Source of the DNA: Deinococcales bacterium | GTDB lineage: Bacteria; Deinococcota; Deinococci; Deinococcales; JAAFIG01 | Reading direction: 5' to 3' | Assembly (NCBI GenBank): GCA_013298595.1 | Contig: JAAFIG010000028.1 | Span: 1-63,992, forward strand | DNA length: 63,992 nucleotides | In this document: one piece after another, positions 39,393-59,953 of the stretch | How positions within the stretch are numbered: the first letter of the stretch is position 1 | How the letters are laid out: each line of letters begins with the position of its first letter | Translations under genes and position numbers: made by a program | Notes under the pieces: model-generated | What the model was told of the DNA's origin: nothing | Database searches by the model: none | What the model saw: only the letters and a program-made list of their open reading frames with translations

Positions 39393-42300
39393 TTAGATGC
39401 AAGGGCGTTCCAAAAACGTTCCAAGATTGCCAAATTCCGTACCAAGGTGTTTTTCGAGTTCATGACGAAGGTTGCTATGTTTCTTTTGCCATGATTTAAC
39501 ACGGGTTGCAAGCACTTCGGATAACCATAATGCTTCGAGTGAAGTAGGCAGGGATTTAAGCAGTTTTTCTGCGCGGTCTGTGATATCTTCGCCAATACGA
39601 GAACGCATCAGTAACATCCGTGCCTCGAGCCAATTTGGTAATTGAGGTAAGTCATTAAAAACCGCTTTCGCTTCTTGATTTGCACTTGCAAGGCAACAGG
39701 CATAATAAACGCGGTATTCAAGTTGAACAGCACGTATTTGAGGCTCGAGTTGGCTTAGTAATGCAGTGGCTAAGGTAATATTTTTTTGCTGTAAAGCAGC
39801 TCGAGTGCGATGAATAGCAATTGGTGCAATATATGATTGCCCTGCTTGTTCAAGTAGCAATTCAGCTTGTTCAAGATGTTCTAAAGCCTTAGCAGATGCT
39901 TGTAATCCAAGGTAAGCATCTGCAAGCCAAAGATGTTGTACCAATGTTTGTGCTGGGTTGCTGAGTGTTTGGCTTTGGGTCAGGGCAAGATGGGCATTTT
40001 CTAAGGCAGGTTTAAGTTGACCAGTGCGGTATTGAACTCGTGAAAGCATAGCGGTAAATTGACATTCTCGAGCCAACATTTTCCCTTGTGTGAGTGATAA
40101 ACCTTCAGTAATCGGGTTTTTGGCAGCAGAAAATAAACCTGCCCTTAGTTGTTCTGCACAAAGTAAAACTAGAGATACAGTTAAAACTCGCTCGAGGTCA
40201 TATTCTCGAGCGAGTTTTGTGGCTCGTTGTAAACGATCAAGAGCTTCGGAATTGCGTCCAAGTAATCCAAGTAATTGCCCGACTTGTGCTAATTCAGTTA
40301 TTTCCTGTTCACGTTGGCGTAGCCCTTTGTAAATGCTGTAGGCGCGTTCGGCTTGCTCAAGGGCTTTAGGTAAATCATTCAACCGACGATAAACTTCTTT
40401 GAGACTCGAGTGCAATTCGGCTGCAATTTCTCCACGTTTTTGAATTTGTAATCCTTCAAGTAATTTTTCTCGTGCTTTCTCTGCTTGCCCAGAACCAGTT
40501 AATGCTGTGCCAATCAGCAATAATGCTTCGGCTCGAGTTTCCCCTTGGGCTTCTTCGAGTGCTTCTTGGGCTTGCTCGAGGGCTGCCGAGAATTGTCCTC
40601 GGTAGAGGTGCGCTTTGGCAGTCAATAATTGTGCTCTGACACTGTACTCGAGGGGTAAGGCATGGCTGAGGTCTTGCATGGTGCTGGCGTGTTGCTCGAG
40701 TGCGTCGAGGTCTAGGAGAGTCAAGGCAAGGTCGGCACTTTGGGCATGAATGGTAAAACGGGTTGCATTGTCTGGTTCGAGGCTTAGGGCTTTTTTGTAA
40801 GTGTTACGGGCTTCTTGATGAGCGAAGATGGCTCGGGCAGTTTGAGCAGCTTTGATAAGCCACGGTATGGCTTCTTGAGCGCGTCCACTTTGCTCGAGAT
40901 GCCAAGCAATTCGGGCTGGTTTTTGATTGTTGCGTATGAACTGGTCGGCGAGACGGCGATGAATCATTCGTTCGCGTTCTGGGCTGAAATCCTCGAGCAA
41001 ACTGCGGCGTACTACATCGTGACTAAAACGGTAATTGCTTTGTTCACGGCGAATCAGTTGCGCGGTGGTGGCTCGCTCGAGGGCATGAATGGCTTCGTTT
41101 TCTGAAAGAGCACTGGCGCTGAGTAAATGTTCAGCATCGAATGGGTCGCCGCTGAGGGCAGCCACTTCGAGGATGCGTTTCACGGCTGCACCAAGATGAT
41201 GGATACGACCCATGACGAGTTCACGAACATTATTTGGAATGGGTAATTCGGTGTAATCGGCAGTGTTGGTATCAAAAGCACTTGTCCAAGTGCCATCTGG
41301 CTCGAGGGTAAGAGTGCCATTTTCAAAGAAGCCTTGTAAGGTCTCGAGGGTTAACAGTGGGTTGCCACCACTGGCAAGGTGCAGGCGTTGGGCAAAAAGT
41401 GGTGCATGTTGTCCTGATAGGGATTGGAGTAAGCCAAGGGTTTGGTTTTCGTTAAAACTTGGTAGGGCGTGTTGTCCCAGTAAATGTTCGCGGTTTAAGG
41501 TGCTTAATAGATTTTGTAAATCTGGGTTTTCGCTGCTTTCTAAATCTCGGGTTGTGGCAAGCATTAGGCAGTGTTTACGAGCTAAATGGGCAATCACTTC
41601 TAAGCTGCTGGGGTCGAACCAGTGAAGGTCATCAAGCACTATGTATTCATTGGCTTGTAGTGTGGCTTGTAAGGCTCTTGTAAGGGCTTCAATGAACTTT
41701 GCCCGTCCAAGTGAACCAGAGGTGTTGGCGCTATCTATTATTGCTTCTGAGAAGAATTCTGGGATCAGTCTTGCCACTTCGCGCCGCCAAACCAATTCCA
41801 TATTTTCTGGGTGGATACGCTGCTCGAGTAACGCTGTGCGTAAGGTTTCGGCGATTGGATAAAGTGGAATATTGCTGGCACTGGCAAAGCCACGTAGTGT
41901 TAAAAAATAGCCTTTTGTACGAGCAAAATCTTCGACTAAACGGGTTTTGCCAACACCAACTTCGCCTTGTACAATGCGTAAAGGTACAGTTTGTTGCTCG
42001 AGCCAAGCCCAAGCTGTTTCGCGTCCAACCAATGGTGGGCGCAGCAAATTTGGGCGTTGCACAGTGGTTTCTAAGAATTCTGCTGGTTCGGGTAAGGCTC
42101 GTTCAATGCGCTCGAGTAATTCTAGGGTTTCAGGTAAGGGTTTTAAGCCAAATTCGTTTTTGAGCATTTGCTCGAGTGCATCAAAACGTTCAAGAGCAGC
42201 GGCTCGTTCGCCTAAACGCCAATGTAATCGCATGATTTGACGATGATGCACTTCTTGTAAACCGTCGAGCTGTAACAAGGCTTGATGTGCTGCCAGTGCC

Positions 42301-42797
42301 CCACGTAAATCTGTACTTGCTTCGAGTTGTGTGGCTTGCGCTGCCCATAATTGTGTGGCAATACTGCGTAAGTACTCGCGTTTTTGCTCGAGCCAAACTT
42401 CAAATTCGGTAGCAGCATTGATTTCTAAACCCATTAAAAACTCGCCCTGATATAACTCGAGCGCCGCGTTTGCTTCTGTTTTTGCAAGTGTCTCGAATTG
42501 GGCAACATCAGAATGGATTGGTTGCAATGCCACATGGGTTGCTGTCACTTCGAGCAGAGGCGCGAGTGGTGTTTCCCGTAAACGAAACAATTCTTTACGC
42601 AAATTATTACGCGCAGCTTCTTCGGGTAGATCAGACCATAACATCCCCGCTAAACGTCCTCGAGCCACACCACCTTCGAGGGTCACAAAAGCCAGTAAAG
42701 CCAATGCCTTACGCGTGGCTAAGGTAACTGGTTGCCCTTCAAATAAGACCACACCACGCCCAAATAAGCGTAACTCGAGGGTTGGGCTACTGGTCAT
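39393..42797 (-). CDS. BTAD/AAA/TPR transcriptional regulator (SARP-LuxR type size)
   Basis: An 1134-residue regulator. The N-terminal winged helix (about 8-90, LELRLFGRGVVLFEGQPVTLATRKALALLAFV) and the BTAD helical domain (about 95-235) are followed by an AAA ATPase with Walker A GEVGVGKT (278-285) and a Walker B-like YIVLDDLHW, then a long TPR array to about 1115. Proteins of this form act as signal-integrating activators. TAAACT six bases before the ATG suggests a leaderless transcript. Downstream genes for a 61-residue protein and a lipoprotein look like its operon. A shorter relative lies at 53113-55803. Confidence 0.92.
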   Translation of the reverse strand: MTSSPTLELRLFGRGVVLFEGQPVTLATRKALALLAFVTLEGGVARGRLAGMLWSDLPEEAARNNLRKELFRLRETPLAPLLEVTATHVALQPIHSDVAQFETLAKTEANAALELYQGEFLMGLEINAATEFEVWLEQKREYLRSIATQLWAAQATQLEASTDLRGALAAHQALLQLDGLQEVHHRQIMRLHWRLGERAAALERFDALEQMLKNEFGLKPLPETLELLERIERALPEPAEFLETTVQRPNLLRPPLVGRETAWAWLEQQTVPLRIVQGEVGVGKTRLVEDFARTKGYFLTLRGFASASNIPLYPIAETLRTALLEQRIHPENMELVWRREVARLIPEFFSEAIIDSANTSGSLGRAKFIEALTRALQATLQANEYIVLDDLHWFDPSSLEVIAHLARKHCLMLATTRDLESSENPDLQNLLSTLNREHLLGQHALPSFNENQTLGLLQSLSGQHAPLFAQRLHLASGGNPLLTLETLQGFFENGTLTLEPDGTWTSAFDTNTADYTELPIPNNVRELVMGRIHHLGAAVKRILEVAALSGDPFDAEHLLSASALSENEAIHALERATTAQLIRREQSNYRFSHDVVRRSLLEDFSPERERMIHRRLADQFIRNNQKPARIAWHLEQSGRAQEAIPWLIKAAQTARAIFAHQEARNTYKKALSLEPDNATRFTIHAQSADLALTLLDLDALEQHASTMQDLSHALPLEYSVRAQLLTAKAHLYRGQFSAALEQAQEALEEAQGETRAEALLLIGTALTGSGQAEKAREKLLEGLQIQKRGEIAAELHSSLKEVYRRLNDLPKALEQAERAYSIYKGLRQREQEITELAQVGQLLGLLGRNSEALDRLQRATKLAREYDLERVLTVSLVLLCAEQLRAGLFSAAKNPITEGLSLTQGKMLARECQFTAMLSRVQYRTGQLKPALENAHLALTQSQTLSNPAQTLVQHLWLADAYLGLQASAKALEHLEQAELLLEQAGQSYIAPIAIHRTRAALQQKNITLATALLSQLEPQIRAVQLEYRVYYACCLASANQEAKAVFNDLPQLPNWLEARMLLMRSRIGEDITDRAEKLLKSLPTSLEALWLSEVLATRVKSWQKKHSNLRHELEKHLGTEFGNLGTFLERPCI

Positions 42798-48926: not shown

Positions 48927-51611
48927 TTATTGACTGATGAGTTCAACTTCGGGAATGGTTAGCTCACCTAGTTGTTTTGCCCAGATTCGCACAAAGCGGG
49001 CGGTGCTGGCATTGGGCAATACGATGGTGCTTGGATTGCCAATACTGCCATTGATTTCGGATCGCCATACAAGATTTTCGGGTAAGGCTAATGCCTCTGC
49101 GAGGGTCATTTGGTTTGAGAACACAGGAAAATCAGCAGCCATGACCCAAACATTGCCAAACGATTGCGTGCCATTTGAACGTAAACGAATTTCTTTAAGG
49201 GTGTAGCGTTTCTCGAGGTCAATTTGCCACCAAGCCAGTGGCACACCACTGGCATGAGCGTAGGTGTTGATGTCTCCGTCTACCGCAAATGTACCCGCAC
49301 GGTTGAATTCCATGGCGGATAAGGCTGGGTTGCGTGGATTGGCGGTATTTGAGAATAATCGAGCCACGTTATTGCCATTTGAAGCGTTGGCGTAAGCAAT
49401 CGCAGCAGTTGAAGTATTTAATGGTACGGCATGAACAACAGTGGCGTTGCCCTCGGCAACCAGCAGCACTTGTCCATCACCTGATTTTGGGTGTTCTTGA
49501 TTGCGAAGTGTTAATACCCCAGAGTTGCTGCCTGCGGCAATGGTCAGTGGGTCGCTGGTCACGGTGTAATACGGATTATCGGCTGCTAAGTTGGGTTGTT
49601 TGGGAATCTCGAGTCGAACCGAAATGGGTCCGTTATACCCACCTGAGCGGTCTACACCGATGCTTAAAGTGGTACTCGAGTTGGCAGCCAAATACACGGG
49701 TGCGCCAAGGTTTAAGCGATACCCTGCATTGCTGCTTGGGGCAGGGGCATTCACGGCTGGTGTGCTGTTGTCGTTGTTGGCAAATTCACCACTAATCAGC
49801 ACATTGTTGAGTTGCACAGGTCCAGACTCGAGGAATTCGTATAAGGTTGGTCCTGGGAAAGGTCCGTACTCGAGGGTGGTTCGATTGCTAGGGTTGTTGG
49901 CGGTGCGGGCAATGGCAACGGAATCTGATAATTGGGTGGTGTCTGGTTCGCCTTGGTTGTTTATCACCACGGCTCGGCTGTCAGCCACAATGCTGTTCAG
50001 GATGGGTTTGAAATTGGTTGACCAAAAAGCGGCATTGCGGCATTTATAGGCAGTTATGCCACTGATGGTGGCGGCTTGTGAACCAATAATGCCGCGTTGA
50101 TCGAAACGGAAACACGAACCAGCTTCTTCTGGGGCGTAACCAAGATTGAACACGCTTTTACCACCATCCACTGGATTACCAATAAAATTGATCGAATGTG
50201 CCACATTGTCTTTGAACTCGAGTAAGTACGAATTGGTAGCGAATTCTGCCACAGTTTTAGCAATCACAGGGATTTTATCGGTTCGGACATCAGCAAGGAT
50301 ATACCCCCAGCCGTTTTCCACGCCAGCCACGACATTTCCTCGCACGGTGTTCTGCGGATTGGTCAGCCAAAAACCAGCTTGGCGTTCGGCTCGGTCACTG
50401 TCACCATCTTTTAAGCTCAGTCGGTGTTTACGTAGCACATAACCGACTTGCATCACTAAGTTATTGGTCAGGATATTGTTGCGTTCCACGCCATCTTCCA
50501 GAAAAACCGCATGACCAGGCAGATTGAAAATCACGTTATTATCGGCTTTAACCCCATTGGACTGATGAATCACAACACCGCGCTGAAAGGTATCATGAAT
50601 ACTCGAGTTCTGAATAAAACTTCCGCTCGAGGTATCCTGATTGAGATGCCAATGCACAGGGTAACGACCAAGCATTCCTTGTTGTCCTAAACCAGTCACT
50701 TCGATGTTTTGTAAACGCACAGTTGAACCTGTCATAAACATCATATGTCCACCAAAACGCCCAGACTCGAGACGTTGACCATCACCATTTTGTTTGCCTT
50801 GTGCATCAAAGGCTTCTGGGTTAAAACCAGGCAGGGTGCGTTCTTGATTATCAATGCTTTTAATCACAATGTTACGACTTAAATTACCAACTTCGGCTCG
50901 CATATCTAGGGTTTGATTGCCGTACATTTGCGGGGCTTGTCCCCAATGGTCAAACTCGAGCGGGCGATCTAATGTAATGGTCTGACCTGCAATGGCGGTA
51001 ATGCTGCGTTTTTCTGCTTGCAGGGCATCAAAATCACTGGGGGCAACTGCAATTTCATCGCCGACTTGCCACCCGTCGAGTGAATCTTCCAATGACAACT
51101 CGGTTGCTCCTTGTAATGCCGAGGCATTCAAATGTGTCCAACTGCGTTTGTTCTGCCCGTACAACTCGAGTGTGCCACCCATTGTACCTAAGAATTTTGT
51201 TCCCATCCCCATAATTTTTTCATTTGGGTTTGTTCCTGCGAGTTGAATCACAAATCGCTTATCAAATGGTTGAGTTGCAGTGCCGACACTGAATTTGCCT
51301 GACCCGTGCAGCATTATCCAATTTGCCGTTAGCTCGAGGTTTTGGTTGGCAGCAACGAGTGTACCTTCAACTGTTAAACTGGCAACTCGAGTAGAACGAT
51401 CTAAAGTGATGGTTTTGCCAGCAGGAATAACCACAGCACTGTTCGTATCAGGTAATGTGCCACCCCACGTGATCGGGTCGGACCATTGTGTCCCTGTACC
51501 ATTGGCAGGCGTGGGCACGGGATTTTGGCTCGAGGCTGGTTGTGTACAAGCAAACAGTATCAGCCCAAGTATTGATAGCAAAAACAGCGAACGAGGAGCA
51601 ATAATGGTCAT
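48927..51611 (-). CDS. CEMIP/TMEM2-like lipoprotein: G8 domain, beta-helix, discoidin domain
   Basis: An 894-residue lipoprotein with lipobox LFAC (Cys22). The G8 domain (about 40-155, SDPITWGGTLPDTNSAVVIP) is followed by a right-handed beta-helix. Its core has the family stretches GRYPVHWHLNQ, SIHDTFQRGVVIHQSNGVKA, GHAVFLEDGVERNNILTNN and FWLTNPQNTVRGNVVAG, close to those of vertebrate CEMIP and TMEM2, which take part in hyaluronan breakdown. A C-terminal discoidin (F5/8 type C) domain (about 750-890, AWWQIDLEKRYTLKEIRLRS) ends in FVRIWAKQLGELTIPEVELI. It is probably a surface protein that binds or cleaves a polysaccharide; activity is not shown. AGGAG precedes the ATG at 51611. Confidence 0.9.
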   Translation of the reverse strand: MTIIAPRSLFLLSILGLILFACTQPASSQNPVPTPANGTGTQWSDPITWGGTLPDTNSAVVIPAGKTITLDRSTRVASLTVEGTLVAANQNLELTANWIMLHGSGKFSVGTATQPFDKRFVIQLAGTNPNEKIMGMGTKFLGTMGGTLELYGQNKRSWTHLNASALQGATELSLEDSLDGWQVGDEIAVAPSDFDALQAEKRSITAIAGQTITLDRPLEFDHWGQAPQMYGNQTLDMRAEVGNLSRNIVIKSIDNQERTLPGFNPEAFDAQGKQNGDGQRLESGRFGGHMMFMTGSTVRLQNIEVTGLGQQGMLGRYPVHWHLNQDTSSGSFIQNSSIHDTFQRGVVIHQSNGVKADNNVIFNLPGHAVFLEDGVERNNILTNNLVMQVGYVLRKHRLSLKDGDSDRAERQAGFWLTNPQNTVRGNVVAGVENGWGYILADVRTDKIPVIAKTVAEFATNSYLLEFKDNVAHSINFIGNPVDGGKSVFNLGYAPEEAGSCFRFDQRGIIGSQAATISGITAYKCRNAAFWSTNFKPILNSIVADSRAVVINNQGEPDTTQLSDSVAIARTANNPSNRTTLEYGPFPGPTLYEFLESGPVQLNNVLISGEFANNDNSTPAVNAPAPSSNAGYRLNLGAPVYLAANSSTTLSIGVDRSGGYNGPISVRLEIPKQPNLAADNPYYTVTSDPLTIAAGSNSGVLTLRNQEHPKSGDGQVLLVAEGNATVVHAVPLNTSTAAIAYANASNGNNVARLFSNTANPRNPALSAMEFNRAGTFAVDGDINTYAHASGVPLAWWQIDLEKRYTLKEIRLRSNGTQSFGNVWVMAADFPVFSNQMTLAEALALPENLVWRSEINGSIGNPSTIVLPNASTARFVRIWAKQLGELTIPEVELISQ

Positions 51612-51804
51612 GAATTCTCCTATCAAACAATAAGTCAAAGTGAATCAACAACTGGGTCTGGAATAAATAAACTTCGAGATATGCCTCATTGTAATCCTTA
51701 GCAGTTCAGTCTTAGTGTAAAAAAATTCATGCTAGAGTCAATAAATAACGAACTTATGCCAATCAACCCAATATGTTTATTCACAGCCGAGTTGTAATCG
51801 ACAC

Positions 51805-51833
51805 AAAAAAGCGCTCGAGAAAATCTCGAGCGC
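51805..51833 (-). terminator. Terminator of rpmI-rplT, arms built on CTCGAG
   Basis: A perfect 10-bp stem GCGCTCGAGA-aaa-TCTCGAGCGC followed on the minus strand by T6, 20 bases after rplT. Confidence 0.93.
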
Positions 51834-51852
51834 CATCTAAAACCAATTTAAT

Positions 51853-53047: not shown

Positions 53048-53061
53048 TTGGCTCGAGTTTG

Positions 53062-53089
53062 GGTAGGCAATGGTTGCCTACCTTTTTTG
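53062..53089 (+). terminator. Terminator after the DinB gene
   Basis: GGTAGGCAA-tgg-TTGCCTACC with T6. It lies between the DinB stop and the next gene's promoter, inside what would be an upstream extension of the BTAD frame, ruling that extension out. Confidence 0.93.
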
Positions 53090-53112
53090 TTTTGCCTGTT
53101 AGACTACTAACC

Positions 53113-55803
53113 ATGTTGCGTCTCGAGGTGCTGGGGTCTGTGCAGGTCTTGCTGCACGGTAAACCAGTGTCGCTTGGGGTTAAACCTTTGGCATTGCTGG
53201 TGTATTTGGCACTCGAGGGGCGCACAAATCGGCGGGCGTTAGGGGCGCTGATTTGGGATGATGCTCCGAACCCATTAAACAATGTTTCGGTGGCAAAAAA
53301 TCAACTCGAGAAAGCGCTTGGTGATGTACTGGATGCCGATGTGGACTCGCTTGCCTTGAAAAGTTTTTCTTGCGATGCCCTCGAGTTTCATGCCAGTCAT
53401 CCCGATTCATGGGCTTTATGGCGTGGTGGTTTTTTTACGGGTCTGCGTTTAGCAGGTTGGGAGAAGCAATTATCCGACGCGTGGCAAGATTGGTTGTACG
53501 CTACGCGCTCGAGATTAACGGCTGAACGGCAAAAACTGGCGGTGCACCTAGCAGAAGCCCAGATTGCAACGGGGCAACTCGAGGCGGCACTTGAATTTTT
53601 AGAAGTGGCAACCAGTGGCGATGAACCACTCGAGGATGCTGCTACCAAGCAAATTCTGGTGTTGGGTGCACTGGGTCGCGCTCAAGCTGCGCTCGAGGTT
53701 TTTACGCGCTTAGCACGGTTGCTGCGTGAAGAACTGGGTGTCGAACCGATGCCTGAAACGCTGGCTGCCCTCGAGTTTGCTCGAGCCGATGCTGTGGCTT
53801 GCAAAGCTAAACTGGGTGCTAGAGTTATCAGTACCGTACCGAGCGCCAAAGCCGATGTGCCATTTGTTGGACGCGACTCGCAAACACAACAACTTGGTAC
53901 GTTTTTACAATCTGCGCCAGCTCGGGTCGCCATTATTGAAGGCGAACCCGGCGCGGGAAAAACCCGTTTAGCCCTTGAAATCCTCGAGCAAAGCAATCTT
54001 CGATTCTGGCATCTCGAGTGCTTACACGGGGCATTAAGTGGTGCGACACTGGCATCTTTGGTAACACAACTTGGCAGTCTGGACGCACTACCTGCCGACT
54101 CGAGAAGTGCCTTGGAACGTTTACTCGGTTTACGCGATGCCAAGGAATCCTTACCACCTGATCTCGAGCAAAAAGCTATTTTTCTGGGGATTCGCGCTTT
54201 ACTTGTACAAACTGCGCCTAAGGTTGCGTTGCTATTCGACGATCTGCAATGGGCGGACGATTTAACCCTGCGTTTTCTTGGCTGGTGCTTTGCCGAGCCA
54301 ATGCCCCTCGAGCAATTTTGTGTGCTGATAACCCTGCGTAATACCGAAAGTGCTAGGGGAGATGTACCAAATGTCCTCGCTGATTTTGCTCGTCGTGGTA
54401 TTTCAACACGCCTCGCTTTACCCGCCCTCGAGATGGAAGCTGTCCAAACCCTCGCCACACAATTTGGTAAAACCACCGATGCAGCAACGCTCTACAATGC
54501 TTCTGGAGGTAACCCATTTTATTTACTCGAGTTGCTGCGTTCCCCCGATGGTAAAGGACGCATCGCCGAGTTAATTCGTGCGCGGCTCGAGGGACTTGGC
54601 AGTGTGGCTCAGCAAATGCTCGAGGCACTGTGTATCGTTGGCAGCAATGCCTCGGTGGCTTTGCTGCGAGCTGTGTCTGGGCGTTCACTCGACGAAGAAC
54701 ACGATGCCTTGGTCACATTAACCGCTGCTGCTTTACTGCACACCACCGATACAGTACGCTTTGCCCACGACTTGGTACGCGAAAGTATCGAAACACAACT
54801 CAGTGCGGCTCGAGCGCAACTTTTGCACCTCCGAGCAGCTCGAGCATCACAACCCGTCGAAGCTGCCACACATTACTGGGCAGCCCGTGAAGCCTGGCTC
54901 GAGACGGACACCAACAATGCTATTCAAGCCTTCCTCGAGTTAGGCACCCGCCAAGGCTACCGAGGCGAACGTGAACCTGCGCTGATTTGGTTTGAACGCG
55001 CCCTCGAGCACTGCCCAGACACCATGCGAGCCACAGTCATGATCGAACAAGCCTCGTTACTCGAGCGATTCGGCGATTACCAAGCCGCGATGCAACAACT
55101 CGCCGATGCAGAATGGTGGCTCGAAACAGACTTACAAAAAGCCAAAGTGTTGGTGGCTCGAGGGTTTATTTTGCAACGTGAATTGCGTGATTTTACAGGA
55201 GCTGAACAAGCTTTACTCGAGGCACAAAAGCTACTAGCAGGACAAAAAAACCGTGAGACACTGCTGATTTATGGTGATGCTGTGCATTTATTAGGCACCG
55301 TAGCATTCCAACAAAAAAAATATACAGAAGCCCTCGAGCATTACCAAACTGCCTACAAATTAAGACAGAATTTACGTGACAATATGCGACTCGCAGAAAG
55401 CCTGAGTGGGCTTGGGAGTGTTTGTATTTCGCTTAACGATACTCGAGCGGAAAAATTTATTCTTGAAAGTATCAAATTGCGTCGTGAGCTTGGCGATTTG
55501 ATACGTGTCACAAGATCATTAACTAACCTTACGGCACTTTATCACCAACAGGGTAAAATTGAAGCTGCACTCTCTGCCCAACGTGAGGCTTTAGACACGC
55601 AGTACCACATTGGTAATTCAACAGATATCGCTATTTCTCTGAATAATCTTGGTGTTTTTCTATTTGATGCGGGTGATATTGTCGCTGCTGCTGACCATTA
55701 TAGACAAGCTATTGAGATTATGCAGAAAAATCAACTTGAACCTCGAGTTGATTTCTTAGCTAATCTCGCTGAAGCCGAAGCGATACTGGCTCAAGACCTT
55801 TAA
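53113..55803 (+). CDS. BTAD/AAA/TPR transcriptional regulator
   Basis: An 896-residue regulator with the same layout as the one at 39393: winged helix (about 1-85, MLRLEVLGSVQVLLHGKPVS), BTAD helices (about 90-230), AAA ATPase with Walker A EGEPGAGKTRLALEI near residue 280 and Walker B VALLFDDLQWADD, then TPR repeats (about 600-890). It is shorter because the TPR part is shorter. The start at 53113 lies seven bases after TAGACT (leaderless). CTCGAG is dense here: about 30 copies. It is followed by a subtilase lipoprotein gene 35 bases on. Confidence 0.92.
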   Translation: MLRLEVLGSVQVLLHGKPVSLGVKPLALLVYLALEGRTNRRALGALIWDDAPNPLNNVSVAKNQLEKALGDVLDADVDSLALKSFSCDALEFHASHPDSWALWRGGFFTGLRLAGWEKQLSDAWQDWLYATRSRLTAERQKLAVHLAEAQIATGQLEAALEFLEVATSGDEPLEDAATKQILVLGALGRAQAALEVFTRLARLLREELGVEPMPETLAALEFARADAVACKAKLGARVISTVPSAKADVPFVGRDSQTQQLGTFLQSAPARVAIIEGEPGAGKTRLALEILEQSNLRFWHLECLHGALSGATLASLVTQLGSLDALPADSRSALERLLGLRDAKESLPPDLEQKAIFLGIRALLVQTAPKVALLFDDLQWADDLTLRFLGWCFAEPMPLEQFCVLITLRNTESARGDVPNVLADFARRGISTRLALPALEMEAVQTLATQFGKTTDAATLYNASGGNPFYLLELLRSPDGKGRIAELIRARLEGLGSVAQQMLEALCIVGSNASVALLRAVSGRSLDEEHDALVTLTAAALLHTTDTVRFAHDLVRESIETQLSAARAQLLHLRAARASQPVEAATHYWAAREAWLETDTNNAIQAFLELGTRQGYRGEREPALIWFERALEHCPDTMRATVMIEQASLLERFGDYQAAMQQLADAEWWLETDLQKAKVLVARGFILQRELRDFTGAEQALLEAQKLLAGQKNRETLLIYGDAVHLLGTVAFQQKKYTEALEHYQTAYKLRQNLRDNMRLAESLSGLGSVCISLNDTRAEKFILESIKLRRELGDLIRVTRSLTNLTALYHQQGKIEAALSAQREALDTQYHIGNSTDIAISLNNLGVFLFDAGDIVAAADHYRQAIEIMQKNQLEPRVDFLANLAEAEAILAQDL

Positions 55804-55838: not shown

Positions 55839-57449
55839 ATGTCAAAGTCGCCTTACTATCTTGTTTTGTTGCCTGCACTGTTTATTGCGTGTATGCCACC
55901 TAAACCCTTAAAGCCCGAGGCGTATAGCACTTTTGTTGCTTCTGGTAGCACCACAGTGATACTTCGTGGCAAGGATTTGAAAGCCACTCGAGCCACTTTA
56001 GCTGGACAAGTGGCAACGACTGTTGAGCCAAGTGCGACGCTTGATTCGTTACGAATAGTTGTACCTCAGCCGCTCTCAAGTGGAGATACCAGTGTGCTTC
56101 TCGAGTTTGATGGGATGAGTTCTGTTACAAAAGATGTGCATGTTTTGCCTGCCAGTGCCGATATTCCAGCGACTGACCTTGCCACTGATCGAGAAAAATA
56201 CTTGCTCAAAGGCGCAGGTTTTCTAGCAGTCCCACCAAGTCTCAGCCAGACAACTTTAGATGCTGCGATCAGTGCCGCAGGATTCTCGAGTGTTAGTACT
56301 AACGAACCAATTGCAGGTTCAGATGGGGTTTGTGCTAATCGTTTTGTCAGTGTTCAAGACACACAAACCACTCGAAGTACACTCGAGGGCTTAAATGCTT
56401 TGAATACTCAACTTGAGCAGAATATACCTGCTGATGTGGATTTTGAACTGAATGCAGTGATTGTACAAAATCAACCAGATGCGTTTTCCTCGAGTAATCC
56501 CGCTTCAACCCCTCGAGTTTCTCCACAAGCCTTACCCGACGGACTCTCGAGTGTCCGAATTGCAGTGCTAGATAGTGGTATCAGCAATAATTCAGCGTTT
56601 CGGATTCAAGCCAATACGGTGATTGATGTGGCTGCGGCTCGTAATTTTACTACCGAAGACTCGAGTGATCCTGCGCCACTGGCAACCGATGTGACCGATT
56701 TAGCTAAGGATTTGACGACAGGTACAGTAGTTGGACATGGTACAGCTGTGGCAGGGGCTATTTTGCAAACTCTGCGCGAAGGTATTGGTATAGATGGTGT
56801 GCTATTTAATGGGGCGAACAGCATTGTGCCAATTAAAATCTGTGAAGGTGGTAATGGGCGTTGTCGTTCCTCGAGTGCCGTCGCTGGTATTTGTTATGCC
56901 ACCAGTCTTGCCAGTAGTTCCAGACCTGTGAAAGTGCTGAATTTATCGATTGGTGGTGAACTCCCCTCGAGCCTGATGCGTCAAGCCCTCGAGCATGCTG
57001 TTAGCAAAGGTATTAGTGTGATTACTAGTGCTGGTAACAAAGGTACAAATGCGGCACGACCAGTCAATTACCCAGCACAGTACAGTGTCAACTCGAGTAA
57101 TCCTGAAATTAATGGGTTGCTGGCTGTGGGCAGTGTTGGACAAGGCGCAGGAGCGATTACGCCTAGTGATTTCTCGAGTATTGGTAATTGGGTTTCGTTA
57201 ACTGCGCCTGGTGAAAAACTGGATTTACCCAGTGCAGCAGGTGGACTTGCAGTATTTTCGGGTACCAGTTTTAGTGCCCCTCGAGTAGCAGCGGCGGCGT
57301 TGTTACTTCATGCTAAAGCTTTGCCTAATAGTGTTAGTCCTGCGGTTGTGAAAACCAAACTCATCTCGAGTGTCAAGCCAGTGGCTGGTTGTAACAGCGA
57401 GCAATGTGGCGCAGGTTTGTTTGAATTAAGTTCTGCTTTAAACCCTTAA
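55839..57449 (+). CDS. Subtilase (S8) lipoprotein downstream of a BTAD regulator
   Basis: A 536-residue lipoprotein with lipobox FIAC (Cys18). A TIG/IPT-like beta-sandwich (about 28-103) and a propeptide-like section precede the protease domain (about 235-535): Asp245 (AVLDSG), His300 (VGHGTAVAG), Asn400 (TSAGN) and Ser477 (SGTSFSAPRVAA). All catalytic residues are present, with GTSFSAP in place of the usual GTSMATP. TACAAT lies six bases before the ATG (leaderless). It is probably controlled with, or by, the adjacent BTAD regulator; the propeptide differs from that of the protease at 1721. Confidence 0.9.
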   Translation: MSKSPYYLVLLPALFIACMPPKPLKPEAYSTFVASGSTTVILRGKDLKATRATLAGQVATTVEPSATLDSLRIVVPQPLSSGDTSVLLEFDGMSSVTKDVHVLPASADIPATDLATDREKYLLKGAGFLAVPPSLSQTTLDAAISAAGFSSVSTNEPIAGSDGVCANRFVSVQDTQTTRSTLEGLNALNTQLEQNIPADVDFELNAVIVQNQPDAFSSSNPASTPRVSPQALPDGLSSVRIAVLDSGISNNSAFRIQANTVIDVAAARNFTTEDSSDPAPLATDVTDLAKDLTTGTVVGHGTAVAGAILQTLREGIGIDGVLFNGANSIVPIKICEGGNGRCRSSSAVAGICYATSLASSSRPVKVLNLSIGGELPSSLMRQALEHAVSKGISVITSAGNKGTNAARPVNYPAQYSVNSSNPEINGLLAVGSVGQGAGAITPSDFSSIGNWVSLTAPGEKLDLPSAAGGLAVFSGTSFSAPRVAAAALLLHAKALPNSVSPAVVKTKLISSVKPVAGCNSEQCGAGLFELSSALNP

Positions 57450-57724
57450 AAATATGTTTTGTACGTTCGGCTGGAGCATTTGCTCCAGCTTTTTTATTGG
57501 CTCGAGTATTCAAATAATTAAATAGCCTCGAGGCTGTTTCTCACGGCTTGAGTGTGCAAACAGACCAATAACCATTACAAGGTGTTTTTACCTTTAAGGG
57601 CATTTTATGACCCTGCTTCTAAGCTTAATTCATCCAACGAGGAAATACCTCGAGATTCAAAAGGGGACTTATGAAACAGCAAGCAAATTGGCAATCGGCA
57701 ATTCGGCTCGAGAAGAGGATACTT
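57450..57724 (+). other. Intergenic region upstream of the DUF11 lipoprotein gene
   Basis: It holds the terminator of the subtilase gene at its left end and, further right, the promoter of the next gene. I see no gene. Confidence 0.45.
57470..57497 (+). terminator. Terminator of the subtilase gene
   Basis: GCTGGAGC-attt-GCTCCAGC followed by T6. Confidence 0.93.
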
Positions 57725-59953
57725 ATGAATGCAAAGCGTTTGATGATTCAATTGGCACTCGGTACGGTAGTCATGGCGGGTTTAGCGGCTTGTAATCAGA
57801 ATTTTCCTAATGTACTTGATTTTGGTGATGTCATTGTTGATGATGCAGGTGCAGTGGTTAGCAAAATTCCTGGGGTGACTCCAATTGGTGACCCAGTAGA
57901 TGAGGCGATTCCGATTATTAAATGGGAACTCCCAAGTTCGTTTCCGAAGGCTTGTAATACCAGTGCGAACATTGTTCAGAATCCAAAGTTCATGGTCAGT
58001 ACCGGATCTGGGAATATTCCACCTGCAACCATTCCACCTTGGCAACAGGCGTGGGGGACACCTCAATTAAGTCTGATGATGGGTCATGGTAATCCAAAAT
58101 TTGTGCAAATGTGGGGTTTCTTAGATGGTGGTGAAGCAATTCGGCAAACGGTTGGGGTGATGTCGGGTTCTTATGATGTGTATTTTTCGGCAAAACAATT
58201 TAATATTGCAAGCAATCCTTTGCCCTTACGAATTCACTTAAAAACCTCAGCTGGTCTGACAAATCCGTGGATTGCACCTGATATTAATATTCCTGCACCT
58301 TCGACGACTTGGACAATGTATGGTCCAATTACAATTACACCACCGTCCGGTGCTGACACCATTACTGTAGCCTCGAGTAACTTAACACCGTTTGCACAAG
58401 CAGAACCTAAAACAGTTTCTTGGGGACAGGTTGATAATGTTTGTATTTTACGAAAAGTTGTTGAACCTGAACCTGCCGATGTAAGCATTACTAAAGCATT
58501 AGAAATGCCAGCTGTTGCAGGACAACCAAATTACTACTTATTAAATGTCAATAATGCAGGTCCAGGAGCAACTACAGGAACAACTGTTGTTACCGATGTG
58601 TTACCAGCAGGTGTGACCTATAATCCAAGTATTGTGCCACCAGCTGGTTGGACTTGTAATACCTTGAGCTTACCAACGATTACATGTCAAACCAACGCAC
58701 CAATGCCACCTAATACCTCCGTACAATTAGTGATTCCAGTTATGATCAATCAAGACCAAGGTATTATTACCAATTGTGCGAGTGTCACAGCCCCAAATGA
58801 TCCAAAACCACAAAATAATCAATACTGTATAGAATCCGAAGTACAACAACCAAAACCATTTGATTTGGAAATCAAGAAAGACCTGAAAACCAAACCCGCA
58901 GTAGCAGGTCAACCAAATAGCTTTGTTTTAACAGTGACTAATCTTGGACCAAACTCGAGTAGCGCACCTGTAACCGTAACAGACACATTACCACCAGGTG
59001 TAACGTATAACCCATCTGCTTTAGTTCCTGCTGGTTGGAGTTGCACATTTGTTGCACCAACACTGACTTGCCAAACTTTAACGCCAATGCCTTTCCCAAG
59101 CAATGCACAAATCGTTATTCCTGTGACCGTTAATCAACAACAAGGTGTGCTCGAGAATTGCGCTACTGTGGCTGCTGTTGGTGATACCAATATTCAAAAC
59201 GATCGTTCTTGTGTAGCAACAGATGTTGTGCCAGCCAAACCAATTGATATTGCGATTCGTAAGCAATTATTAGGTGCTACCAGTTTACCAGCAGGTGGAA
59301 TTGGCACATACAAGTTAAATATTCTCAACCTTGGTGGTGCGATTTCCGCTGGTCCTACAGTTGTAATTGACAACATGCCAATTGGTTTAACACTGTTGAC
59401 CGCTTCAATTGTTGCTACACCTGCCGCTGATTGGAATTGCGCTGCAAGCACAACGACTCAACTCAATTGTACTTACGCTGGTTCGTATTCAATTGCCACT
59501 GGTTACTCGAGTAGTCTGCAATTTGATGTACAAGTCGCTGGTGGTTTTATTGGATCAGTTAAGAATTGCGCTAAAATTAGTTTAGCCAGCGATACCGTGC
59601 CAAGCAATAATGTTTCCTGCATCAAGAATCCAATTAAGAACCAAGTTATTTCTGATCCGTTTGAACTGGCTTTGAGTGATGCGATGACTCAACTCGAGGA
59701 TTACCTTGAAACCTCGCCTGATGAAGCAACTGCAATACAAAGAGCCACCAGTGGTTTGAAAGATACCTTGAAGACCCAAGTGCGTTTAATGCCTAATTTG
59801 ACTCTCGAGCCAACTGGCACAGATCCCGATACCTTTAATGCTATTTTTCAAGGTGATGCTGGTACATCTCCAACCTTACTCAGTGTGAGAATTAAGTGCT
59901 GGGTGAGTTACCCACCACTTCAAGCAGGTTGCACCATCACGATTACTTTGTAG
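57725..59953 (+). CDS. DUF11-repeat surface lipoprotein
   Basis: A 742-residue lipoprotein with lipobox LAAC (Cys23). Residues about 60-250 form a beta-rich domain with PWQQAWGTPQLSLMMGHGN and GQVDNVCILRK, similar to carbohydrate-binding modules. Three DUF11 repeats of about 125 residues follow (about 255-630), each with the pattern DVSITKALEMPAVAGQPNYY...VTDVLPAGVTYNPS...PAGWTCNT...NCASVT, with paired cysteines that could form disulfides. A short C-terminal domain ends CTITITL. DUF11 proteins are surface or adhesion proteins. The ATG at 57725 follows AGAGGA; earlier starts lack a ribosome site. Confidence 0.9.
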   Translation: MNAKRLMIQLALGTVVMAGLAACNQNFPNVLDFGDVIVDDAGAVVSKIPGVTPIGDPVDEAIPIIKWELPSSFPKACNTSANIVQNPKFMVSTGSGNIPPATIPPWQQAWGTPQLSLMMGHGNPKFVQMWGFLDGGEAIRQTVGVMSGSYDVYFSAKQFNIASNPLPLRIHLKTSAGLTNPWIAPDINIPAPSTTWTMYGPITITPPSGADTITVASSNLTPFAQAEPKTVSWGQVDNVCILRKVVEPEPADVSITKALEMPAVAGQPNYYLLNVNNAGPGATTGTTVVTDVLPAGVTYNPSIVPPAGWTCNTLSLPTITCQTNAPMPPNTSVQLVIPVMINQDQGIITNCASVTAPNDPKPQNNQYCIESEVQQPKPFDLEIKKDLKTKPAVAGQPNSFVLTVTNLGPNSSSAPVTVTDTLPPGVTYNPSALVPAGWSCTFVAPTLTCQTLTPMPFPSNAQIVIPVTVNQQQGVLENCATVAAVGDTNIQNDRSCVATDVVPAKPIDIAIRKQLLGATSLPAGGIGTYKLNILNLGGAISAGPTVVIDNMPIGLTLLTASIVATPAADWNCAASTTTQLNCTYAGSYSIATGYSSSLQFDVQVAGGFIGSVKNCAKISLASDTVPSNNVSCIKNPIKNQVISDPFELALSDAMTQLEDYLETSPDEATAIQRATSGLKDTLKTQVRLMPNLTLEPTGTDPDTFNAIFQGDAGTSPTLLSVRIKCWVSYPPLQAGCTITITL

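Follow-up and report, generated by a model that had tools for sequence, protein, structure and literature searches.

It is disputed whether, and by which mechanism, CEMIP and TMEM2 cut hyaluronan (HA), and their active site has never been confidently assigned. The stretch of Deinococcales DNA analysed here (63,992 nucleotides, hereafter the window) harbors a gene whose product had been described as a CEMIP/TMEM2-like surface lipoprotein. The locus raises two questions: what such a protein might do in a bacterium, and whether bacterial proteins of this kind may help in locating the site at which the vertebrate proteins act.

Gene organization and genomic surroundings

The gene, referred to as P0001, is an ORF of 894 aa located on the minus strand, running from the ATG at position 51611 to the end of the stop codon at position 48927 (48927..51611). 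The preliminary description had placed an ORF at the same coordinates without assigning it a strand. On the 5' side of the ATG, the sequence contains a Shine-Dalgarno motif, GGAG (51617..51620, minus strand), preceded by a sigma-70-like promoter, TTGACT-16-TACACT (51714..51741, minus strand); the latter is a consensus match only, of a type that in the window is barely commoner than in shuffled sequence. A strong intrinsic terminator, with an 11-pair stem and a T run, follows rplT (51810..51834, minus strand). Since it divides P0001 from the upstream rpmI-rplT operon, the gene probably represents a transcription unit of its own.

Apart from rpmI-rplT, the surroundings of P0001 comprise genes for an MFS transporter, a ParA-type ATPase, BTAD/AAA/TPR regulators and a subtilase, that is, housekeeping or unrelated functions. 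Two large BTAD/AAA/TPR regulators are encoded in the window, at 53059-55803 (plus strand) and 39393-42797 (minus strand). The subtilase (55839-57449, plus strand) has a lipobox-like start, FIAC, and lies beside a gene (57671-59953, plus strand) for a protein with three DUF11 repeats.

Domain architecture of the predicted protein

All of the features described below are encoded on the minus strand. The protein begins with a putative signal peptide (residues 1-22, 51546..51611), recognised by inspection and by comparison with aligned relatives: its hydrophobic run ends in the lipobox L19-F20-A21-C22, where F at position -2 is unusual, and in most relatives a signal end of the form LxAC is aligned at the same place. 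Cys22 is presumed to be lipidated, and P0001 is probably lipid-anchored and extracytoplasmic, in agreement with the earlier assignment to the lipoproteins.

The signal peptide is followed by a G8 domain (PF10162; residues 48-162, 51126..51470; E 1.1e-28, 100 bits against a Pfam cut-off of 22.9), forming the first turns of a beta-helix, as it is reported to do in TMEM2 (PMC10206443). On its 3' side lies the CEMIP beta-helix proper (PF24606, CEMIP_beta-hel; residues 286-476, 50184..50756), which is recognised by Pfam (E 5.5e-53, 180.3 bits against a cut-off of 27.3), by the AlphaFold2 model and by fold comparison. The generic Beta_helix and NosD models of Pfam give weak matches, and no NCBIfam model matches the protein.

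The C-terminal part is less sharply defined. A low-confidence model points to a putative Ig-like beta-sandwich at about residues 632-745 (49377..49718), in the place that domain X occupies in TMEM2. The discoidin domain that had been proposed for the C-terminus is borne out, if by a small margin: residues 772-880 (48972..49298) match the F5/8 type C family with 31.1 bits against a Pfam cut-off of 28.2, a real but marginal score for a region whose model is of low confidence and lacks confirmation at the fold level. The same region is matched by Sm-hPAF in a sequence search of the PDB (E 0.0023). When folded alone as a single sequence, the C-terminal part reached a pLDDT of 45 and was left out of the fold search. 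Among the 27 aligned bacterial relatives, P0001 alone has an F5/8C domain.

Relationship with the TMEM2/CEMIP core

The core of P0001 has a single sequence relative in the PDB, human TMEM2 (8c6i; phmmer, E 7.9e-34), and a profile constructed on the 27 bacterial relatives likewise retrieves only 8c6i (540 bits, E 1.4e-160), with a match that spans the G8 domain, the beta-helix and domain X and reaches TMEM2 chain position 1056. The fold comparison gives the same picture. The AlphaFold2 model of P0001 (built on a 10-row alignment, with pLDDT >90 in much of residues 50-440 and <50 after residue 608) is superimposed by VIA on 8c6i over 491 residues (Z 29.4, 3.1 Å, 28% identity), against Z <=23.2 for other beta-helices, and Foldseek returns 8c6i at 3.7e-22, against 1e-9 for the next fold. 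TMEM2 is therefore the clear best match in both the profile and the structure comparison that had been suggested as a check, and the homology of the core to CEMIP/TMEM2, supported also by the G8 and PF24606 matches, lies far beyond chance.

This bears on the opposite case named in the preliminary description, i.e., a generic pectate-lyase-like beta-helix whose histidine motifs would resemble those of CEMIP by chance. Right-handed beta-helices are indeed numerous among the structural neighbours: lyases, epimerases and hydrolases such as AlgG/AlgE, PL6 and GH28, together with NosD, share the fold at Z 18-23, and the weak Beta_helix and NosD matches in Pfam agree with them. Their structure-based identity to P0001 is only 7-14%, though, and none of them is matched in the sequence search of the PDB, whereas TMEM2 is set apart by sequence, by Foldseek and by VIA; the PF24606 score of 180 bits and the presence of all seven residues characteristic of the family (see below) complete the evidence on which this case was discarded, its residual probability being negligible. 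By VIA, NosD is the runner-up (Z 23.2), level with the alginate epimerases (about 22), so its rank provides no evidence for copper.

In TMEM2/CEMIP2 (8C6I) and in CEMIP/KIAA1199/HYBID, as in P0001, the G8 domain opens a continuous right-handed beta-helix and the residues RYPxHxH...R....H...GH....E are present. The vertebrate proteins differ in carrying a POMGNT1-like lectin domain inserted after G8, a C-terminal lectin-like domain and domain X, and they are type II membrane or secreted proteins, whereas P0001 would be a bacterial lipoprotein ending in Ig-like and discoidin parts. The first of these differences is evident from the alignment, where P0001 residues 162 to 170 span TMEM2 chain positions 162 to 334; about 170 TMEM2 residues, corresponding to the first lectin-like (GG) domain and including R265, D273 and D286, are missing according to both Pfam and the alignment. 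The second lectin-like domain is also absent, the C-terminus of P0001 being of the F5/8 type C instead. Domain X, through which the profile of the bacterial family runs, is lacking as well, since a profile of the family from which P0001 and its sisters had been left out aligns to P0001 only as far as residue 608, so that the family homology ends at about residues 608-627. The supposed equivalence with CEMIP thus does not extend beyond the core: as judged from its sequence, P0001 shares the CEMIP core and is not a CEMIP orthologue. It is also among the members more distant from TMEM2, with a core identity of 32%; the C2 paralogue reaches 35% and L085, from the same phylum, 43%, and P0001 is therefore not the best bacterial proxy. 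Fibrocystin (PKHD1) and PKHD1L1 also have G8 and PbH1 units that are homologous to TMEM2 (PMC13424714), but, unlike P0001, they are giant IPT-containing eukaryotic membrane proteins.

The conserved histidine-rich region

The two motifs quoted in the preliminary description, GRYPVHWHLNQ and GHAVFLEDGVERNNILTNN, both lie where the family is most strongly conserved. The former (residues 315-325, 50637..50669) contains R316, Y317, H320 and H322, the two histidines corresponding to TMEM2 H550 and H552. On what would be the next coil, R344 and H349 (50565..50582) are aligned with TMEM2 R580 and H585. The latter motif (residues 366-384, 50460..50516) contains H367, E372 and N384, with H367 and E372 corresponding to TMEM2 H603 and E608. 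TMEM2 numbers were derived from the 8c6i chain, in which 23 vector residues precede residues 106-1383 according to the methods section of PMC10206443.

Thirteen positions (E304, R316, Y317, H320, H322, R344, H349, H367, E372, N384, W415, N426 and H472) are invariant in 27/27 bacterial sequences, and TMEM2 agrees at all of them in a wider alignment of 56 rows, about 47 of which have letters at the conserved columns, fragments lacking some of these. In this wider set, R316, H320, H322, R344, H349, H367 and E372 are kept by all of the approximately 45 cellular homologues that cover the columns, and departures are found only in two distant proteins from viral contigs, L090 and L092.

The spacing of these residues is regular, with 24 and 23 residues separating 320, 344 and 367, and 27 and 23 separating 322, 349 and 372; the AlphaFold2 model of P0001 has strands at residues 319-322, 346-349 and 369-371. 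In TMEM2, His552 has been placed in the Ni2+ site of 8c6i and equated with PKHD1L1 His2479, a residue altered in a family with hearing loss (PMC11043200). The structure paper lists one Ni2+ without discussion and states that the active site could not be assigned (PMC10206443). By their spacing, residues 320/344/367 and 322/349/372 would stand on successive coils of the helix; the geometry of the pocket is inferred from this spacing together with the published Ni2+ site. Since conservation across bacteria and human is confined to the histidine-rich region, this is the best place to seek the disputed active site. The conserved residues would probably form a chemical site common to the whole family, the lectin insert of the vertebrate proteins being an add-on for recognition. 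It had been anticipated that bacterial cores would inform the mechanism of CEMIP, and they do so to the extent that such deep conservation favours the histidine region over the lectin insert.

Distribution and descent of the family

Proteins with a G8/CEMIP core are widespread in bacteria and already known to Pfam (PF10162 plus PF24606) and to RefSeq; plasmid records label them "G8 domain-containing protein". They share the two Pfam domains of P0001, and in its phylum they are mostly lipoprotein-like and 800-1000 aa long. Profile searches disclosed PF24606 in 39 of the 111 genomes of Deinococcota, with five copies in the genome under investigation. The L20 protein of the latter is most similar to that in the D. 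radiodurans ribosome, followed by T. thermophilus, which agrees with its place in this phylum. The four paralogues of P0001 are located on contigs C2, C11, C34 and C45, the C2 copy being canonical and the most similar to TMEM2. Elsewhere, the domain was found in 11/350 genomes from the phylum of a Chloroflexaceae MAG, in 3/247 from the class of a Saprospiraceae MAG and, above the cut-off, in 1/240 from the class of a Rhodospirillales MAG, each of these three samples containing its own seed genome.

In a maximum-likelihood tree, P0001 joins L008, from the Chloroflexaceae, and L079, from another genome of its own family (88/74), while TMEM2 falls on a long branch among the canonical bacterial sequences (87/69); both placements are to be considered tentative. 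A phage origin of P0001 was rejected, given that phage records yielded no match and that the relatives on viral contigs are distant and mostly devoid of the conserved columns. One of them, encoded by L090 (5914-8289, plus strand) in a viral collection and possibly representing host DNA, is a distant G8 protein with a C-terminal PA14 domain that retains the R, H and H of RYPxHxH but no other part of the conserved set. In the Chloroflexota copy L132 (2807-5825, plus strand), two overlapping frames (473 and 548 aa) meet inside PF24606, which might reflect either a frameshift or an assembly error.

Cupredoxin fusions in Chloroflexota

Eight of the 12 sampled Chloroflexota ORFs of the family (L008, which is the same as L123, L122, L125-L129 and L132) carry an N-terminal cupredoxin. 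L008 has two such domains (PF00127, E 3e-20), the second of which shows the full type-1 ligand pattern H..CxxHxxM; this pattern also occurs in L122, as CSLHAGM, in a domain left incomplete by the end of the contig. In the other six (L125-L129 and L132), the pattern is H..CxxD, where Asp replaces the second His, and the usual Met follows in all of them except L126. In single-sequence Pfam searches, L127-L129 give no cupredoxin match and L125 and L126 fall below the cut-off; a profile built on the eight domains matches copper nitrite reductase, amicyanin and plastocyanin (best 5e-20). When the L008 cupredoxins were searched against 14 genomes, the same CEMIP-like ORFs were returned in six other Chloroflexota genomes. 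Hence, a predicted copper-type domain is recurrently fused to the beta-helix bearing the invariant histidine-rich site.

These fusions might suggest that a redox metal is bound in the histidine pocket and that polysaccharide is cleaved there by oxidation, the cupredoxin of some relatives donating electrons or copper. The grouping of P0001 with the cupredoxin-bearing L008 in the tree and the Ni2+ reported at the site in 8c6i (PMC11043200) point in the same direction, although the Ni2+ may derive from the affinity resin. The fusions by themselves do not show a copper mechanism, in that the domain is missing from P0001 and from every member sampled in its phylum, and six of the eight cupredoxins lack one usual ligand. 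Moreover, cleavage by CEMIP/HYBID has been described as endo-beta-N-acetylglucosaminidase-like, i.e., hydrolytic (PMC6888145), and the activity of TMEM2 has been reported to be Ca2+-dependent (PMC10276149). On balance, a redox enzyme of the copper type appears rather improbable.

Proposed function

P0001 belongs to the G8/CEMIP family and has the right-handed beta-helix as its core, and we consider it moderately probable that it is active on polysaccharides through its histidine pocket. The working site would be formed by R316, Y317, H320, H322, R344, H349, H367 and E372 on three successive coils; these residues would have acid/base and carboxylate-binding roles, possibly holding a metal, and would attack a carboxylated extracellular polysaccharide, either hydrolytically or by beta-elimination. 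The Ig-like and discoidin parts at the C-terminus may serve to present this polymer or to bind it. As the substrate, an exopolysaccharide of bacterial or environmental origin is more likely than animal hyaluronan. In the open-licence literature, no paper on bacterial CEMIP homologues was found, nor any report of enzymatic activity in a bacterial member.

The core might instead belong to a non-catalytic adhesin or surface coat, in which beta-helix and discoidin domain bind polysaccharide and the histidine cluster is structural or metal-stabilised, as perhaps in fibrocystin and PKHD1L1. Discoidin domains are typical binding modules, a CAZyme neighbourhood is absent, and PKHD1L1, a coat protein of stereocilia, retains the histidine (H2479, equivalent to TMEM2 H552; PMC11043200). 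One laboratory, moreover, reports that pure sTMEM2 neither cleaves HA nor detectably binds it (PMC10206443). Another laboratory reports that HA is degraded by purified TMEM2 (PMC10474455), and approximately seven charged or polar residues strictly kept in one region, across phyla and in TMEM2, are more than a scaffold usually needs; a purely adhesive role is therefore regarded as possible but doubtful.

A genuine bacterial hyaluronidase, directed against animal or capsule hyaluronan, is very unlikely. The homology of the core to TMEM2 would speak for it, but P0001 lacks the lectin-like insert in which substitutions of R265, D273 and D286 are reported to abrogate TMEM2 activity (PMC10206443), and the genes of the family are solitary, their surroundings showing no link to uronates or to a host. 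Neither a recurring partner gene nor a setting of polysaccharide utilisation was found around P0001 or its homologues, and among the 156 flanking ORFs nothing recurs apart from local synteny and a handful of common families. A hyaluronan-degradation context was sought and rejected accordingly: GH88 never exceeds the cut-off in this genome, occurring only below it. The Lyase_8 profile matched none of the sequences searched, controls included, and does not bear on the question. Hyaluronan is thus unsupported as a substrate of P0001.

Implications for the TMEM2/CEMIP family

The hyaluronidase activity of TMEM2 is itself a matter of dispute, with two negative papers (PMC10206443, PMC10276149) and one positive (PMC10474455). 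The authors of the positive study attribute the discrepancy to the fluorescent HA product (PMC10474455), a product that was degraded by the testicular hyaluronidase control of the negative one (PMC10206443).

It is conceivable, if improbable, that the CEMIP/TMEM2 family was ancestrally one of metal enzymes, with the invariant histidine pocket, rather than the lectin insert, being catalytic, and with a redox or transition metal that in some bacteria would be supplied by the fused cupredoxin. HisTrap is a nickel resin. It was used to purify the inactive TMEM2, which crystallised with Ni2+ (PMC10206443), and the active one was purified on cobalt resin (PMC10474455). If the proposal were true, the metal state would help to explain the difference between the two preparations.

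The bacterial cores lack the lectin insert and yet have the conserved residues intact, so recognition is probably separable from the chemical site; in TMEM2, H550, H552, R580, H585, H603 and E608 would probably form the chemical site, and the lectin insert would probably serve in substrate recognition. Bacterial proteins may be easier to make, and relatives with up to 43% core identity to TMEM2 would be better proxies than P0001. The value of the bacterial family would thus lie in the residues that it shares with TMEM2 and in the copper-domain fusions of some of its members, rather than in a bacterial hyaluronidase.
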